64,000 bases of DNA from Synergistaceae bacterium (GTDB taxonomy: Bacteria; Synergistota; Synergistia; Synergistales; Aminobacteriaceae). Positions 28,508 through 35,788 of the stretch are shown here, piece after piece. The translations under genes were made by a program, and so were the position numbers. The stretch spans positions 1-64,000 of the forward strand of contig JAFSWZ010000027.1 in NCBI GenBank assembly GCA_017450125.1, in the 5' to 3' direction. The notes below the pieces were generated by a model. It was not told the DNA's origin and made no database searches. It was given only the letters and a program-made list of their open reading frames with translations. Position 1 is the stretch's first letter, and each line of letters starts with the position of its first letter.

Positions 28508-29335
28508 TTACTTCATGAACGGCACAAGCAGTCCTTCATCCCAGCCCACAGGCCTGAAGAATCCGCCGTACAGTTTTGCTAAATGCGCCTTCATTGCCTC
28601 GCTCTGGTACGCGTCGACAACTTTGGTGTACGTTGCTAGTTTCTCCGGGTCCTCAAGGTCAGCAGTACGTGCCGCGATTAAGTTCCAGTACTCCTGCTCG
28701 CGCGCCTGATCCGCGTAAACTGCATCGCTCGCCTTCAGTCCGTAGTCCAGCGCGTAAGTGTCGTTGATTACGCCCGCCGCAATGTCCGGCAGTGCTGAAG
28801 GTATCGTGTTCGCCGCGAGCTCCTGAATCGTAATCTTCTTGCTGTAGCTGGCGATGTCCTCCTTCGTCGGGTTGAAGCCCGCTCCCTCGCGCAGAGTGAT
28901 AAGCCCGCTCGTGGCCAAGACCTTGATTGCGCGTCCGCCGTTCGTCGGGTCATTGGGGATTGCGATTACGTCGCCGTCCTTGATCTCGTCTAGGCTCTTA
29001 ATCTTGATTGAGTACAGGTTCAGCGGAACAACGAACGTGTTGGCAATGTTCGTGAGCTTGTAGCCCCTGCTCTCCAGCTCGTCGGCAAAGTATATCCTGT
29101 GCTGGAATCCGTTGAGGTCAATATCCCCGTCAGCAAGTGCACGGTTCGGCGTAACGTAGTCCGTGAACTGTATCACCTCAAGGGTAATGCCCTCCTTCGC
29201 GAGAGCTTCCTTGACGGGTGCCCACATCTCATCGTAGACGCTGCCGGTAACCCCCAGCCTCACCGTAACCGCCGCCGATGCACTGAGTGCCAGAGCCAGC
29301 ACAAGCGCGAACGCCACAACTAACTTCTTCGTCAT
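28508..29335 (-). CDS. metQ: Methionine ABC transporter substrate-binding protein MetQ (NlpA family)
   Basis: Periplasmic binding protein of the MetNIQ importer. The start at 29335 follows AAAGGAAG and yields a classical signal peptide ending in SASA-AV. Family motifs include LGVTGSVYDEMW, VIQFTDYVTPNRALADGDIDLNGFQH, IAIPNDPTNGGRA and the C-terminal GGFFRP. Unlike many NlpA proteins it has no lipobox cysteine, so it is probably soluble. Last gene of metNIQ. Confidence 0.9.
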   Translation of the reverse strand: MTKKLVVAFALVLALALSASAAVTVRLGVTGSVYDEMWAPVKEALAKEGITLEVIQFTDYVTPNRALADGDIDLNGFQHRIYFADELESRGYKLTNIANTFVVPLNLYSIKIKSLDEIKDGDVIAIPNDPTNGGRAIKVLATSGLITLREGAGFNPTKEDIASYSKKITIQELAANTIPSALPDIAAGVINDTYALDYGLKASDAVYADQAREQEYWNLIAARTADLEDPEKLATYTKVVDAYQSEAMKAHLAKLYGGFFRPVGWDEGLLVPFMK

Positions 29336-29390
29336 AACAACATACTTCCTTTCACGAAAATATCTATCTACAAACCGAAGGCTGAAACCC

Positions 29391-30068
29391 TCAGTGTGTA
29401 TTCTTCCTCGCAAAGTACTCCCCTAACCACTGCACAACGCTGACTCCAGCGACAAGCACGCCCACAACTACCCACGTAATGTCCTGCATGTTCCTGTCAT
29501 GCCCGTAACGTATCGCGAAGTCTCCGAGCCCTCCTGCACCTACAGCACCGGCCATAGCGGTTAATCCCAGAAGGCTTATGATTGTGATTGTGATTGCACG
29601 GATTATCGGCGCAAGGCTCTCGCGCAGATACACCCTGAATATCACCTCGAACGGGCTCGATCCCATCGACAGCGCAGCCTCAACAAGCCCCTTGTCTGTC
29701 TGTGCAAGCGCGCTCTCAACCTGACGCGAGAAGAACGGCGTTGCTCCGAACACCAGAGGTACGATAACACCTCTCACGTAAATTGCTGTGCCCATTATTG
29801 CACGCGACAACGGCATTAATGCGGTAAGCAGTATGATGAACGGTATCGACCTGAACAGGTTAATGATCTTGTCGAGCACCTGATACACAGGACGGTTCTC
29901 CATTATGCCGCCGGGTTTCGTTACGGTCAAGATTATTCCGAACACCAGCCCGAACACGAAGATGATTGCTCCCGACCAGACTTCCATCAAGAGAGTATCT
30001 CCGCAGGCCTTCCAGAACTCGGGAAGCCTCCTCATGAGATTCGGAAGCCATCTGCTAAGCTCCTGCAT
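29391..30068 (-). CDS. metI: Methionine ABC transporter permease MetI
   Basis: A 225-residue inner-membrane permease with five to six hydrophobic segments. Contains the RSIPFIILLTALMP region and an EAA-type loop (LVEAALSMGSSPFEVIFRVY), which contacts the ATPase. The terminal AGAVGAGGLGDFAIRYGH is typical of MetI. It overlaps metN by 14 bases. Confidence 0.93.
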   Translation of the reverse strand: MQELSRWLPNLMRRLPEFWKACGDTLLMEVWSGAIIFVFGLVFGIILTVTKPGGIMENRPVYQVLDKIINLFRSIPFIILLTALMPLSRAIMGTAIYVRGVIVPLVFGATPFFSRQVESALAQTDKGLVEAALSMGSSPFEVIFRVYLRESLAPIIRAITITIISLLGLTAMAGAVGAGGLGDFAIRYGHDRNMQDITWVVVGVLVAGVSVVQWLGEYFARKNTH

Positions 30069-31095
30069 CCTGAATCACCTCCACACGTATATTCTTGCTC
30101 CTGTAGTACTCTATTGCACGGTTGATGTTCTCTCTCGGCCCGCTGAAGATTACGACCGTCCCGCCGACCATTGAGCCCGCGACAATCTCGACATCCGCAA
30201 GCACAATGTTTATCACCACGTCGAACGCCCTCGACGCGTAGGAGATCAGCGGCTCCGACACGTCCGCGTAAACGTAAACCAGCCGTGCCATGAGTTCGCC
30301 GGGCTTGAGCTGGACTATCGGGGACTCGTCGCGTATCAGCGTCTCAATCTTCGAGAGGTTGGAGGTTGTGCGCACAAAGTTTCGGGTAACGGGATGCTTC
30401 GGCGAGGAGAAAATCTCGAACACGTCGCCGCTCTCTATAACTTTCCCTGCATCCATCACGGCAGCTTTCAGGCAAATGTTCTTGACGACTTCCATCTCGT
30501 GCGTAATCACAACGATTGTCAGGCCAAGTTTGCGGTTCAGATCCTTCAAGAGCTGGAGGATTGCGCCGGTGGTCTGCGGGTCTAACGCGCTTGTAGCTTC
30601 GTCGCAGAGGAGTATTCCCGGGTCATTGGCGAGTGCACGTGCGATTGCGACTCTCTGCTTCTGCCCGCCGGAAAGCTCTGACGGGTAAGCGTTCTCCTTG
30701 TCGGGAATGTCTACCAGTGCCAGAAGCTCCCGTACCCGTGCCTTCATTGCGTCCTTAGTCATTCCGCGCAGGGGGTAAGCTACGTTCTGCATGACCGTGC
30801 GCGACGGCATAAGGTTGAACTGCTGGAATATCATTCCGATTTTCGTGCGTGCCTTGTAGAGTTCCTTCGGCTTCAGCTTCGTCATCTCTACGCCGTCAAT
30901 CCTCACGCTCCCGGAGTCCGGCCGTTCGAGGAGGTTGATGCACCGCACAAGCGTAGACTTCCCTGCGCCGGAGAAGCCGATTATCCCGAAGATGTCTCCG
31001 TCGTTAATCGTCAGCGATACGTCATTGACCGCGTGAATGGCTGTATCCTTCCTGTCGGCGTTGAAGCTCTTAACAATGTGTTCAAGTTCAATCAA
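30055..31095 (-). CDS. metN: Methionine ABC transporter ATP-binding protein MetN
   Basis: ATPase subunit of the D/L-methionine importer. Starts at TTG 11 bases after AGGAGG. It has Walker A GFSGAGKST, the signature LSGGQKQR, Walker B ILLCDEATSALD and the switch His in VVITHEM. Residues from about 265 form the C-terminal NIL domain, which binds methionine and inhibits transport. Expression is probably controlled by the leader peptide and attenuator at 31121-31255. Confidence 0.95.
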   Translation of the reverse strand: MIELEHIVKSFNADRKDTAIHAVNDVSLTINDGDIFGIIGFSGAGKSTLVRCINLLERPDSGSVRIDGVEMTKLKPKELYKARTKIGMIFQQFNLMPSRTVMQNVAYPLRGMTKDAMKARVRELLALVDIPDKENAYPSELSGGQKQRVAIARALANDPGILLCDEATSALDPQTTGAILQLLKDLNRKLGLTIVVITHEMEVVKNICLKAAVMDAGKVIESGDVFEIFSSPKHPVTRNFVRTTSNLSKIETLIRDESPIVQLKPGELMARLVYVYADVSEPLISYASRAFDVVINIVLADVEIVAGSMVGGTVVIFSGPRENINRAIEYYRSKNIRVEVIQDAGA

Positions 31096-31120
31096 TCGTT
31101 CTCATTCCTCCTGCATATAA

Positions 31121-31217
31121 CAAAAGCGGGAAGCCGTTTCGTGTACGTACTCCCCGCGTCATTATCTCTTCAGCGAACAGCACGACAAACTATGTGCCTT
31201 CACACATCATCATGCTG
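31121..31217 (-). promoter_or_regulatory. Candidate methionine-responsive transcription attenuator upstream of metN
   Basis: Three mutually exclusive minus-strand structures can be drawn. A pause hairpin pairs CAGCATGA (31217-31210) with TCGTGCTG (31185-31178), with an inner ATGTG/CACAT stem; its first arm contains the Met codons of the leader. A terminator pairs GCGGGGAG (31157-31150) with CTTCCCGC (31133-31126), then TTTTG. An antiterminator could pair GTTTgtCGTG (31190-31181) with CACGAAAC (31143-31136). This matches classical ribosome-controlled attenuation. No SAM riboswitch or T-box motif was seen. Pairings were made by eye. Confidence 0.65.
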
Positions 31218-31255
31218 GTAATAATTATGCTGTCAGAAAAATTATTGTTAGCCAT
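31190..31255 (-). CDS. Putative metNIQ leader peptide with three consecutive Met codons
   Basis: A 21-codon frame starts 9 bases after the -10 box and ends in TAG. It begins MANNNFSDS and contains SMMMCEG, so codons 15-18 are Met-Met-Met-Cys. The predicted transcription start is only a few bases before the ATG, so it would be translated as a nearly leaderless message with no ribosome site. A run of the regulated amino acid before a terminator and the cognate transporter is the hallmark of an attenuation leader. Chance occurrence cannot be excluded without comparison. Confidence 0.65.
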   Translation of the reverse strand: MANNNFSDSIIITSMMMCEGT

Positions 31256-31264
31256 AGTGCGGAA

Positions 31265-31294
31265 ATTATATGCCCCGCAAAGCCTGAGTGTCAA
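31265..31294 (-). promoter_or_regulatory. Strong sigma-70-type promoter for metNIQ
   Basis: Minus strand: perfect TTGACA (31294-31289), 18-base spacer, perfect TATAAT (31270-31265). The -35 overlaps the stop codon of the upstream restriction-modification gene. Confidence 0.88.
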
Positions 31295-34056
31295 GATTTG
31301 TCTTTCTTCGCCTCCCGGTACATCCTGAACAGCTCCGCCGCAATATCCTCCTCGCTCCTGTCCTTCGCCCACCCGTACGCCGCACACACCGCCGCATCAT
31401 TCGCACGGTGCGCCTCACGCAGGGCCAGCGGCATCGCGTTGTCCGTGTACAGCTCCGCAAAACTGCACTCAGGGTTCAGGGCCCGCGCGTCCAGAATCGC
31501 CTGCGCAGTCCGCTCTATCCTCGCGCGCTGCTTCTTCGTCGGTGAAGGCCAGCAGAACGTGTTGTACACCACTCTTGTACTGTACCTGTAACCTATTCCC
31601 AGCCTTCCGCAGACTCTCCTGACCCACGCCATATGTACCCTGCTCGTCAGGACTCCGAAATGATACAGCGTTGCATCAGGTATCATGTACAAAGTGTTAC
31701 CTGGTATTACTTCAGCAGGAAGCCAGCCGAAGGGAATATAGCTCCTCTTATCCGATGACACCTGAGGAATTGCAAGATAGTTTTTCGTGGCGTAACGTAT
31801 CTCACTGAACAGCGCGGGTGTCTCTGCCTGCTTCCTCGTTGCGGCTCTTGCGCTCTCAAGCCTGAACTGTTTAACCCTCTCTATCCTCTCCATTACGCGC
31901 GGACATTTCGTGATGATACTCGGGCTTGCATCAACCAGCCACAAGCAGTATCTCGGCACTCTCTGTATGAAGTCAACTCCCATCATGAACGGACGAATCA
32001 ATTTCTCGGCGAGCGGGTCAGTCCTCAAAAGCTCGTCTCTCTCTTCAGCAGTCATGAGGAGATTTCCATCATCACGCGGAAGGCCTCCTATTAACGTTCT
32101 CGGGGTATCCTCCCTCATCGGCTCGGGCTGGGGCTCCGCAAACTCGTTAGGCCCGGGCACAAGGTAGAAGTTTATGTTGTCCACAAGCCGCACTTTCCCG
32201 CCGGTAATCAGCTTCTTCTTCACGCCCGGCTTCTCTCCCCAGCTGAACCCTATCACTACGCAGTGAACCTGTGCCTTCTCCTCCGCCTCGCTGTCCCACT
32301 TGAAGGCCGTGTGCGCAAAGTCGATGAATATCCTGAACCCGAAGTGCAGGGGCTTGAAGACTGTGCTGACAAGTTCGCCCTGAGTGATTGAGTTCGTCGA
32401 GACGAAGGCCGCCCGCGCCTTTGTGCCGCACAGGAACTCCGAAGCCTTGTAGTACCAGCACGCAACGTAATCGAGTTTCCCCGCCAGCTTTCCGTCCTTG
32501 TAGAGCGAGGCAATCTCCTGCTTCTGTTCCTTCGACTGTGAAGGGTAGCCCAGATACGGAGGGTTGCCGATAACGCAGAGATTTTCGTCAGGCGTGATGA
32601 CTTCGCGCCAGTCTGTGAGGACGGAATTTGCCTCAATGATGCGGTTGTAGGTTTTGAGGGGCAGGATGTCTTCGTAGAGCTGAACGATGGATTTGGTCTC
32701 GTTGAACATCTGAGTTTCGGCGATCCACAGGGCAGTACGCGCGACGTGGACGGCGAAATCATTAATCTCTATCCCGTAGAATTGCGAGATGGAGACCTGC
32801 ACGGGGGTTTCTTCCTGCGAGAACGCAAAGGAGATCTGTCCGCGCGTAAGTTCCTGAATGATTCTGTTCTCGAGGCGGCGCAGTGAAAGATACGTTTCTG
32901 TGAGGAAGTTTCCTGAGCCGCAGGCCGGGTCGAAGAATCTCAGAGTGCCGAGCTTCTTCTGGAACTTCCGCAGGTTCTGCGTTCTGGACTTGTCGGGAGG
33001 AGCTGAGGTTATCTCCTCAAACTCAGCGTTGAGGCCGTCCATGAAGAGCGGGTCAATCACCTTGTGGATGTTCTCTATCGACGTGTAATGCATCCCTCCG
33101 CTGTGGCGGGTCTTGGGGTTGAGGGTTGACTCGAAGACTGCACCGAAAATCGTCGGGGAAATTCCCGCCCAGTTGAAGCCCTCGCTCATCTCCTCGAGGA
33201 TTATCCTTAACGGCTCTCCGTCGAGCTGGGGTATCTCTATGTCCGCTTCCTCGAACAGCCCGCCGTTGACGTACGGGAACGCCTGAAGGTCTGCCTCGAG
33301 GTACGGGTCTCTGTTCTCCGGCTTCCTGCTCAGGACGGCGAAGAGCTCCCGCAGTGAGTTCCGTGCTGAGTTTCTGCGTGAGGCTAAGTAGTCGTGAAAC
33401 TGTTTCGGCGCGAAGAGTCCCGAGTCCTCAGCGTAGAGCAGGAAGACGACTCTGACGCAGAAGATGTTTAGGCTCCGCTGTGATGCTTTGCCGTCGGGGT
33501 CAACGTAGCGCGTGAGGAGTGAGTCATAGAGTTTTCCGACGAGTTCGCCGGCTTTCACGGAGACTTCGAGCTCGCGGATTTCTTTGGGGCTTGAGGCTTT
33601 GCTGTCTACGAGGAATGCCAGCTTGTTTGCTTCGCGGCCAAGATTCTCGAGCAGTATGATTTCCGGCTCTGCTCTGGGTGTCTCCATGTCGTGGACTCTG
33701 AACTCCCGGAAGTTGCAGACCACGATGAACCTTCCGCGCTGTGATGCCGGTAACCAGTCGTAATATCTCTTGGCCTGCCCGAACGGAGTAATTACCGTGC
33801 CGTCTGACTGCGTCTGTGGCTTGTCGAGGTCAATGCTCCGCGATTTCTGCTCGATTATGATTCGTGTTGAGGGTATGTAGCCGTCGATGAAGCTGACGTG
33901 AGAGAGCTCCACCCTCTTCTGAAACTCTATCATTTCGCCGGGGTTCTGAGTGTCCGACAGACAGCCGAGCAGTTCGAGCCAGAAAGTCTGCGTATCGCTC
34001 AACTCGTCGCCTCTGTCCTTCCAGCGCATGATGAAATCATTGATGTTGTTAGTCAT
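31291..34056 (-). CDS. MmeI-like type IIL restriction-modification enzyme
   Basis: A 921-residue single-chain enzyme combining nuclease and N6-adenine methyltransferase. The N-terminal PD-(D/E)XK nuclease reads Asp58, then EQK at 69-71, like the D-x-ExK site of MmeI. The methyltransferase has FDPACGSGNFL (SAM site) and catalytic NPPYLGYP. Target-recognition and C-terminal helical regions follow (about 600-921). The start at 34056 fits the family's N-terminus, but no ribosome site is visible and it lies 6 bases past the T-run of the pckA terminator. No separate specificity or methylase gene is needed. All active-site residues look intact. Confidence 0.85.
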   Translation of the reverse strand: MTNNINDFIMRWKDRGDELSDTQTFWLELLGCLSDTQNPGEMIEFQKRVELSHVSFIDGYIPSTRIIIEQKSRSIDLDKPQTQSDGTVITPFGQAKRYYDWLPASQRGRFIVVCNFREFRVHDMETPRAEPEIILLENLGREANKLAFLVDSKASSPKEIRELEVSVKAGELVGKLYDSLLTRYVDPDGKASQRSLNIFCVRVVFLLYAEDSGLFAPKQFHDYLASRRNSARNSLRELFAVLSRKPENRDPYLEADLQAFPYVNGGLFEEADIEIPQLDGEPLRIILEEMSEGFNWAGISPTIFGAVFESTLNPKTRHSGGMHYTSIENIHKVIDPLFMDGLNAEFEEITSAPPDKSRTQNLRKFQKKLGTLRFFDPACGSGNFLTETYLSLRRLENRIIQELTRGQISFAFSQEETPVQVSISQFYGIEINDFAVHVARTALWIAETQMFNETKSIVQLYEDILPLKTYNRIIEANSVLTDWREVITPDENLCVIGNPPYLGYPSQSKEQKQEIASLYKDGKLAGKLDYVACWYYKASEFLCGTKARAAFVSTNSITQGELVSTVFKPLHFGFRIFIDFAHTAFKWDSEAEEKAQVHCVVIGFSWGEKPGVKKKLITGGKVRLVDNINFYLVPGPNEFAEPQPEPMREDTPRTLIGGLPRDDGNLLMTAEERDELLRTDPLAEKLIRPFMMGVDFIQRVPRYCLWLVDASPSIITKCPRVMERIERVKQFRLESARAATRKQAETPALFSEIRYATKNYLAIPQVSSDKRSYIPFGWLPAEVIPGNTLYMIPDATLYHFGVLTSRVHMAWVRRVCGRLGIGYRYSTRVVYNTFCWPSPTKKQRARIERTAQAILDARALNPECSFAELYTDNAMPLALREAHRANDAAVCAAYGWAKDRSEEDIAAELFRMYREAKKDKS

Positions 34057-34061
34057 GGCAA

Positions 34062-34093
34062 GAAAAAAAGCGGCATCCCGCAAAGGACACCGC
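34062..34093 (-). terminator. Intrinsic terminator of pckA
   Basis: Minus-strand stem GCGGTGTCC / GGATGCCGC (two wobble pairs), 6-base loop, then seven T. Confidence 0.85.
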
Positions 34094-34111
34094 AGAAAAT
34101 TATTGCTGTCT

Positions 34112-35788
34112 CTAGCCTATCTCGGCAATGAGCTTCTCGACTGCCTCGCGTGCATCGTCAGGAAGCCTGTCGATTCCGCCGCGCTCAGTCTCTCTGCTCT
34201 TGATGAAGTTCAGCCTGTCCTGGAATCTCTTCTTGAGCTGAGTCCTGTACTCGTCGTTCTTCAGGTCAGCGTCGAAGCCCGGAATCGCCATCGTCTTGAT
34301 GCCGGTCAGGTTGCCGAACGGAGTCCACTGCGCCGTGCCCTCAACGATGCGCTCAATGATCATGAGGGTGTTCTCCTTGCCTACGGGCTTGCCCATGAAG
34401 CTGCCGGTGTTGAGGATGTAGCAGTCAACGCCGTCGGAGATGAGAGCCTTGAACCTCTCGTAGTCCATGCTGAGCGGGTAAGTCCTGAACGGGTTGGCGT
34501 AGGGTTCGCAGACCAGTGCGTCAGGGTCAACGCCGGGTGCGAGGTTCTCTGCGCTGGTTCTCTTTGTCGCGAGCGTTGCGCCGAGAACGGAAGCCAGCGA
34601 CGGGCCTTCGAGTTTCAGCACGGGCGGGAGCGTCGGGTCTCTCATGAGCCAGAAGATGGCGTTCAGAGGCTCGTTAATCCTGTCGACTCTGTTAGGCGAC
34701 CACAGGCGGGACTTGATTGCGCGTCCGTTTCCGTTGCGTACGTCCTCAGTTACGGCTATGAGTTTGCCGTCAGGAGTCCTGATGCATCCGCAGTTCTGGA
34801 GCGTCAGAATGTACTTGTTGTCCGGGCAGCCGATGGGGTAATCTGCGACCTTGTCGAAGTACGTCGGCTCGAGGGCGATTGCGTACTTGTCCTTTACGTT
34901 GACGACGAACGCATCATCATGAAGCACCATGACATCATATTTGCCGTCATGCTTTGCGTGTGTGATTGTCGACTTGCCGGAGCCTGACAGACCGAACGCC
35001 GCGACAACGAACTTCCTGCCGCTTCCGTCCTTGAGGGTGTACCTCTTAAGTCCACCGTGGCATGATGCGTAGCCGTTGCGTGCCGCGATGCCCCATGCGA
35101 GGGTCAGAGTGCCCTTCTTCATTTCGCCGAAGTAGCGCAGTCCGAGAACTATTGCGCAGTTCTCTTCGGGCGAGAAGAAAGCGATTCCCAGCGGGAACTG
35201 CTTCTGAAGCTCGGGGTCTCCGTGCGGCCAGTCGGGGTCTGCGACAAAGAAGATGTCTCCGTCGTGGTCGGAAATCTGGCGCGATGCCGCGTAACGCGGT
35301 GCGTAGGCTTCGTTTGCGTACTGGAAGTTAATCATCCAGTTGTACAGGTTGTTCTCGTAGCCTTCAGGAACGATGCAGTGTGCGGAGGTCATGAAGTCTT
35401 CGTCAAGCCCTACGTATGCATCAGCCTGATAGAGCTTGCGATAGCGCATGTTGAAGATTGCCTCGCGGATAATCTTGCAGTACTTGGCCACGTCGACATC
35501 AGGATAGCCGACGATTCTTCTTGCGGCTGCGGTGCGTCCGAAGATTCCGCCGTCGTTGAATAGGAGGACATTCGCGCCCATCGGGAGTCCCTGCGCTTCA
35601 GGCTGGAAGACGGGCATTCCCGTAAGCTCGATTGTGCCGGGCGAGTTCTTTGCGAGGTTGTAGGCCTCGTGGAGGTCCTGTACATGATGGACGTTGTTGC
35701 TGTAGAAGAGGGTCTCGATTGTCGTTCTGGGCTGAGCGTGATAAACCTTCTTGAAGTTTTCAGGATCATAGTAACCGATTGTTGACAT
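34112..35788 (-). CDS. pckA: Phosphoenolpyruvate carboxykinase (ATP)
   Basis: Interconverts oxaloacetate and PEP with ATP/ADP; in fermenters it can run in either direction. The 558-residue protein has the kinase loop GLSGSGKST, the metal and nucleotide region MVLHDDAFVV, and the conserved TSAEN and SFMGKPVGKE-type segments near the C-terminus. It is a member of the divergent ATP-type PEPCK group rather than the GTP enzyme. A TATAAT (minus strand, about 35842-35837) between plsY and pckA may give it its own promoter, although the -35 is poor. Confidence 0.88.
   Translation of the reverse strand: MSTIGYYDPENFKKVYHAQPRTTIETLFYSNNVHHVQDLHEAYNLAKNSPGTIELTGMPVFQPEAQGLPMGANVLLFNDGGIFGRTAAARRIVGYPDVDVAKYCKIIREAIFNMRYRKLYQADAYVGLDEDFMTSAHCIVPEGYENNLYNWMINFQYANEAYAPRYAASRQISDHDGDIFFVADPDWPHGDPELQKQFPLGIAFFSPEENCAIVLGLRYFGEMKKGTLTLAWGIAARNGYASCHGGLKRYTLKDGSGRKFVVAAFGLSGSGKSTITHAKHDGKYDVMVLHDDAFVVNVKDKYAIALEPTYFDKVADYPIGCPDNKYILTLQNCGCIRTPDGKLIAVTEDVRNGNGRAIKSRLWSPNRVDRINEPLNAIFWLMRDPTLPPVLKLEGPSLASVLGATLATKRTSAENLAPGVDPDALVCEPYANPFRTYPLSMDYERFKALISDGVDCYILNTGSFMGKPVGKENTLMIIERIVEGTAQWTPFGNLTGIKTMAIPGFDADLKNDEYRTQLKKRFQDRLNFIKSRETERGGIDRLPDDAREAVEKLIAEIG

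Follow-up and report, generated by a model that had tools for sequence, protein, structure and literature searches.

Introduction

The control of methionine is usually ascribed to SAM riboswitches, T-boxes or MetJ. In the attenuators of the trp, his, thr and ilv operons, a small ORF rich in regulatory codons is followed by RNA that can form the alternative pairings 1:2, 2:3 and 3:4, with an intrinsic terminator ahead of the operon. The locus described here, upstream of the metNIQ operon of a Synergistaceae bacterium, has the same layout, with all three pairings predicted; it differs in its predicted sensing of methionine, in having a transporter as its target and in its nearly leaderless leader.

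A leaderless Met/Cys-containing leader peptide, MSTTSDRTPATEATTTPGARCMCRRMCAF, has been tentatively proposed upstream of metNIQ in Streptomyces lividans (metL; PMC8079986). It is without a Met run or a typical terminator and was described from a single species without pairing analysis, whereas at the present locus a terminator and a competing antiterminator are backed by comparison with relatives. In Mycobacterium, leaders with cysteine codons precede cys operons (PMC1262725), and poly-Cys leaderless ORFs are cited in further papers. These resemble the present locus as short leaderless leaders with a sulfur-amino-acid run before a sulfur gene, but the run is of Cys instead of Met and there is no conserved terminator hairpin. 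No methionine attenuator emerged from a survey of Actinobacteria, and the open papers searched yielded none except the tentative Streptomyces metL. Nor did the search of open papers bring up a description of these Synergistota leaders; the main text of a survey that includes Thermovirga lienii (Synergistetes) does not describe them. Two Phe/Tyr leader ORFs upstream of shikimate genes do appear in that survey, and the Phe/Tyr members of the repertoire presented below may have been partly sighted there.

Results and discussion

The leader region of the metNIQ operon

The window, i.e., the whole stretch of DNA that was analysed, comprises 64,000 nt from a Synergistaceae bacterium (GCA_017450125.1, contig JAFSWZ010000027.1, positions 1-64,000). 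The features of the operon and its leader region are:

31265..31294, minus strand: promoter with TTGACA (31294-31289), an 18-nt spacer and TATAAT (31270-31265), a 12/12 match to the sigma-70 consensus
31190..31255, minus strand: leader ORF of 21 codons plus TAG (ATG at 31255, TAG at 31190), peptide MANNNFSDSIIITSMMMCEGT
31202..31213, minus strand: putative sensor codons Met-Met-Met-Cys, codons 15-18, with MMC/MMMC kept in frame in every window-type relative
31178..31217, minus strand: predicted hairpin 1:2 of the Met-codon segment with segment 2, CAGCATG...CGTGCTG, -18.0 kcal/mol
31173..31184, minus strand: segment 2, CGTGCTGTTCGC, predicted 5' arm of the antiterminator, lying 3' of the stop codon in the window
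31146..31157, minus strand: segment 3, GCGGGGAGTACG, common to antiterminator 2:3 and terminator 3:4 by pairing analysis
31119..31157, minus strand: predicted intrinsic terminator 3:4 (31157-31126, -16.6 kcal/mol), then TTTTGTT (31125-31119), from folding and covariation
31107..31112, minus strand: metN Shine-Dalgarno sequence AGGAGG, read directly
30055..31095, minus strand: metN, methionine ABC transporter ATPase with NIL domain, PF00005 + PF09383 (ABC_tran + NIL)
29391..30068, minus strand: metI, permease, PF00528 (BPD_transp_1)
28508..29413, minus strand: metQ, NlpA-type substrate-binding lipoprotein, PF03180

The best match of metN is TIGR02314, at 385 bits under that model's 500-bit cut-off, and its start codon is a TTG at 31095. 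Directly upstream of the leader region lies an MmeI-like fused restriction-modification gene (31291-34083, minus strand), whose last codon and stop overlap the -35 element of the metN promoter. This promoter, which the initial annotation had called near-perfect, is the sole 12/12 match among eight promoter-like sites in a scan of positions 30000-34500, where shuffling leads one to expect 2.2 such sites at 9/12 or better. The 21-codon frame with Met-Met-Met-Cys at codons 15-18 reads just as that annotation had claimed, and every other element that it listed is present in the sequence.

The leader ORF is probably leaderless, since its ATG lies 9 nt past the -10 element and a Shine-Dalgarno sequence is absent. 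In six species of the window genus the -10 element and the ATG stay 8-10 nt apart, a distance that recurs in L011, L014, L024, L027 and L028, so the nearly leaderless start suspected at the outset is likely real. Other members of the window genus, as well as members of a second genus, have a Shine-Dalgarno sequence before the leader start. No Rfam family reached its gathering score in the window, so neither a SAM riboswitch nor a T-box was found there, in agreement with the initial annotation.

Predicted pairings and the attenuation model

The leader RNA, the folding of which had been proposed as a check, is more stable than 199 of its 200 shuffles (z = -2.87), the remaining one being as good. 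Its pairings 1:2, 2:3 (CGTGCTGTTCGC with GCGGGGAGTACG, predicted at -13.8 kcal/mol) and 3:4 are predicted to be mutually exclusive. The outer eight pairs of 3:4 are those of the 8-pair terminator recognized earlier, and the T-run claimed to follow it is TTTTGTT. This terminator has a long loop and a U-run broken by one G, which ends about 23 nt upstream of the metN TTG start. A simple terminator scan limited to loops of at most 8 nt made no call at the 3:4 hairpin because its loop exceeds that limit. Of the features that define an attenuator, the locus has a translatable leader downstream of a promoter, a cognate codon run, a terminator with a U-run and a competing antiterminator; a hairpin 1:2 holding the Met codons is predicted.

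We consider it very probable that a ribosome-mediated transcription attenuator controls metNIQ by the supply of Met-tRNA. The order of the parts, the in-frame conservation of the Met codons, the covarying 3:4 hairpin and the maintained 2:3 pairing (below) support this reading, which the initial annotation had put forward. With the well-studied trp, his and thr attenuators as the model, we infer the stalling of the ribosome, its timing and the response to methionine as follows. Transcription would begin some 3-5 nt ahead of the leader ATG, with the leader being translated as it emerges. With ample charged Met-tRNA (and Cys-tRNA), the ribosome would pass MMMC and arrive at the TAG between segments 1 and 2. 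At that position it would cover segment 2, allowing 3:4 to form and transcription to halt at the U-run. When Met-tRNA is scarce, the ribosome would stall on the Met codons and melt 1:2, and the freed segment 2 would capture segment 3, blocking the terminator so that metNIQ is transcribed. An untranslated leader would form 1:2 together with 3:4, leaving the operon off.

The pairings were evaluated on window-type blocks that were hand-anchored, realigned without gaps and selected with structure in mind, so that the paired-cell percentages lean towards structure: 3:4 pairs in 95.8% of cells, 2:3 in 84.4% (27-55% when slid) and 1:2 in 95.2% (10-52% when slid). For 3:4 there are five double changes, and 0/500 shuffles, which ignore kinship, reach its score. 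Column covariation of 2:3 is borderline, with 33/500 shuffles reaching the score (kinship again ignored); the leaders' own 2:3 pairings are stronger than between-species swaps (z = -4.8, p = 5e-5, kinship ignored). The hairpin 1:2 is nearly invariant, with too little variation for covariation. Of the covariation on which the initial annotation had staked its hairpins, that of 3:4 is thus clear, whereas 2:3 is upheld by the own-versus-swapped fit and remains borderline by columns.

Conservation and loss among close relatives

We took the regions upstream of metN from genomes of the same family. Upstream of metN, 11 further genomes of the window genus and three of the second genus have an MMC/MMMC run in frame with a terminator after it. 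The window genus shows the run as SMMMC, SMIMMC, GMMC or VMMC, the second genus as FDYSMMMC, and the leader peptides of these two genera include MKTEKFFETLNITSSMIMMCECFIHT, MRTEKFFANEIIITGMMCAFIICI, MNITVRFDYSMMMCKCYSSCCPLK and MNLNVCALRGICFDYSMMMCMCGLCMHKICAVR; that of a third genus (G015) reads ...GGMMMCMGMMMRMCTMDAVR. Throughout these relatives the Met run stays in frame while the flanking peptide sequence changes freely. Segment 2 is evidently conserved as RNA and not as protein, because its GTGCTG... persists after the stop codon in the window and its close relatives and inside the ORF, in differing frames, in L010, L033 and L122. An in-frame Met run together with a frame-free segment 2 is the pattern expected of sensor codons plus an RNA arm.

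The element is patchily distributed: strong R2 matches were found in 12/42 genomes of the window genus and 3/4 of the second genus, leaving most of the window genus without it. The MetN of L009 is 97% identical, yet its upstream region is different. This patchiness speaks against the attenuator reading, as do the long loop of the terminator and its broken U-run. At another locus (L034, in G029), only the 3' half is left (terminator GCGGGGAGTACG...CTTCCCG), just upstream of metN and behind another gene, as if the attenuator had decayed through a deletion.

An Rfam search of 20 related loci recovered only SAM-I (RF00162), upstream of the metN genes of G012 and G021 (L138:1163-1265 and L140:995-1097), which represent two genera in the same family. 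This riboswitch, which is absent from the window, binds SAM directly and involves no leader peptide. Its position before metN in these relatives points to the metN operon as a target of methionine-related control, and the same operon is predicted to be under different forms of such control among relatives.

Elsewhere in the family, a MRMSMMRFRDACIMRCRAP-like Met leader of a third kind lies upstream of metN in L131-L136 and L144, of which L131-L134, L136 and L144 represent the genera g13, g15 and g17. It has a terminator and a strong, covarying antiterminator (-26 to -31 kcal/mol), and its Cys-Ile-Met-Arg-Cys end resembles the S. lividans metL peptide.

Met-run leaders across Synergistota

The 14-mer AGCATGATGATGTG has 39 matches in 188 Synergistota genomes, whereas the reversed control pattern has 0, so the Met-run pattern is not a chance occurrence. 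Of 30 matches that were fetched, 26 are Met-run leaders with terminators, and 25 of these precede metN, metQ/NlpA or metY, the metY-like gene encoding an O-acetylhomoserine sulfhydrylase. One Met-run leader (L157) has a downstream gene with no assigned identity. Four of the fetched matches (L156, L166, L184 and L185) were rejected as chance matches. A hairpin and U-run follow every leader examined (34/34). The conservation of the Met codons on which the initial annotation had made its reading depend therefore extends from the window genus to distant genera. As a peptide motif, SMMMC is tightly kept in many genera; MMMC itself is nearly constant, with Cys replaced by Arg or Gln (MMMR, MMMQ) in several relatives. 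In the Met leaders, 11-15 codons separate the final Met of the run from the stop, a distance that would leave segment 2 free when the ribosome stalls at Met and covered when it reaches the end of the ORF.

A scaffold with different putative sensor codons

A covariance model (R1) was built from 18 Met leaders only, with the 2:3 pairing not included. At E <=0.01 it has matches in 144/188 genomes and 57/63 genera, with up to 13 per genome, a tally that contains some matches near 20 bits, which are not specific. As 30 control genomes from outside Synergistota gave just four weak matches (19-22 bits), the approximately 150 R1 matches listed above 40 bits are specific. Seven Met-type loci scanned against Rfam gave no match. 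We read 60 of the R1 matches (L216-L275) and 29 more (within L186-L215). Their leaders mostly end in (C/S)GSPPGxxG-like residues, the codons of which form segment 2, and have a terminator in common, but their codon runs vary with the gene downstream. The run is VVVII/LVLVLI upstream of the acetolactate synthase small subunit gene (ilvH) and VIIIVVVI upstream of that for ketol-acid reductoisomerase (ilvC). TTTTTMTT precedes the gene for homoserine dehydrogenase, MTMT/MMMMT that for aspartate kinase, YFYYF that for phenylacetate-CoA ligase (paaK) and FFFSFFF that for an amino-acid-type binding protein. At cysE (serine O-acetyltransferase) the leaders combine Cys with Met (LVMLCMC, SVCM), and upstream of metX, metY, metQ and metN the run is MMMC.

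With gene classes assigned by us from family matches and sequence similarity, and with many of the counted Met leaders, though none of the non-Met leaders, in the R1 training set, at least three Met occur in 47/49 leaders before met genes versus 0/11 before ilv/paaK genes (p = 2e-10); the comparison of codon run with gene class for Ile/Leu/Val gave 9.5 versus 2.5. In 78 dereplicated leaders from across the phylum, the own 2:3 pairing has an energy of -26.5 kcal/mol as against -21.0 kcal/mol when swapped (z = -14.3), and it beats the row mean in 74/78. Covariation of 2:3, borderline by columns in the window-type set, is in this form very strong, whereas the near-invariance of 1:2 speaks neither for nor against that part of the initial annotation.

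The Cys that follows the Met run, along with the near-constancy of MMMC, the Cys-with-Met runs before cysE and the mixed Met/Cys composition of the Streptomyces metL peptide, raises the possibility that the leader senses methionine and cysteine jointly, as sulfur amino acids. We entertain this tentatively, as a refinement and not an opposite of Met sensing: Cys is single in the window and gives way to Arg or Gln in several relatives. Being single and replaceable, the Cys codon may instead serve RNA pairing, as R1 models a small helix there.

TnaC provides a precedent for arrest by a nascent peptide, in that case with tryptophan. By analogy, the nascent MMMC peptide might arrest the ribosome on sensing SAM, free methionine or a metal as its ligand, and the tight SMMMC motif in many genera is what could be said for this. 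We consider it highly unlikely, as the flanking peptide sequence varies freely and the same scaffold bears VVVII, TTTTTMTT, FFFSFFF and YFYYF before genes of the matching pathways; such wholly different runs fit sensing at the level of codons. That the hairpin is a mere terminator of the MmeI-like gene, with the short ORF incidental or encoding a free small peptide, is barely credible, for although that gene runs in the same direction and ends at the -35 element, a perfect promoter separates it from the hairpin, the order leader-terminator-met gene recurs beside unrelated upstream sequence in other genera, and the competing 2:3 pairing is maintained.

Codon-level attenuation thus remains the preferred reading, and on the sequence evidence the window leader is one member of a predicted attenuator repertoire that spans almost the whole of Synergistota. 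Its own R1 match (31236-31116, minus strand, E = 4.5e-6), the only good one in the window, scores 23.2 bits, near the 19-22 bits of the chance matches in the control genomes. The window leader lacks the GSPPG-like end; its peptide ends in MMMCEGT. Because it matches R1 but has no GSPPG and has segment 2 after the stop, we call it a candidate divergent relative or parallel form of the GSPPG-type scaffold. We cautiously favour a scenario in which one ancestral attenuator cassette, in which the GSPPG-encoding segment 2 pairs with a CCGGG-type terminator arm, was copied before many operons and came to run much of the amino-acid regulation of Synergistota. Only the sensor codons (Met, Ile/Val/Leu, Thr/Met, Phe/Tyr or Cys) would have been exchanged, and the leaderless form in the window would be a derived branch.

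Met/Cys or Ala/Met leaders also precede genes with little or no Pfam assignment. The genes downstream of L235 and L239 are radical-SAM-like by eye, those of L237 and L238 are ABC permeases, and those of L222 and L275 belong to one family with no Pfam match. The leaders may predict sulfur or amino-acid roles for these genes.

Conclusions

Ribosome-mediated attenuation is classical; the novelty here lies in a specificity for Met that is well supported and in a phylum-wide scaffold whose sensor codons are exchangeable. Codon-level sensing of methionine gains comparative support from many genera of one phylum and from four kinds of met gene. The leader peptides allow the specificity of the genes downstream to be predicted, which aids the annotation of transporters whose substrate is unknown. 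They also form a natural setting in which to study shifts in attenuator specificity and the switching of leaders between Shine-Dalgarno-led and leaderless starts. A phylum rich in uncultured members appears to rely on a single switch design in which the sensor codons are interchangeable.
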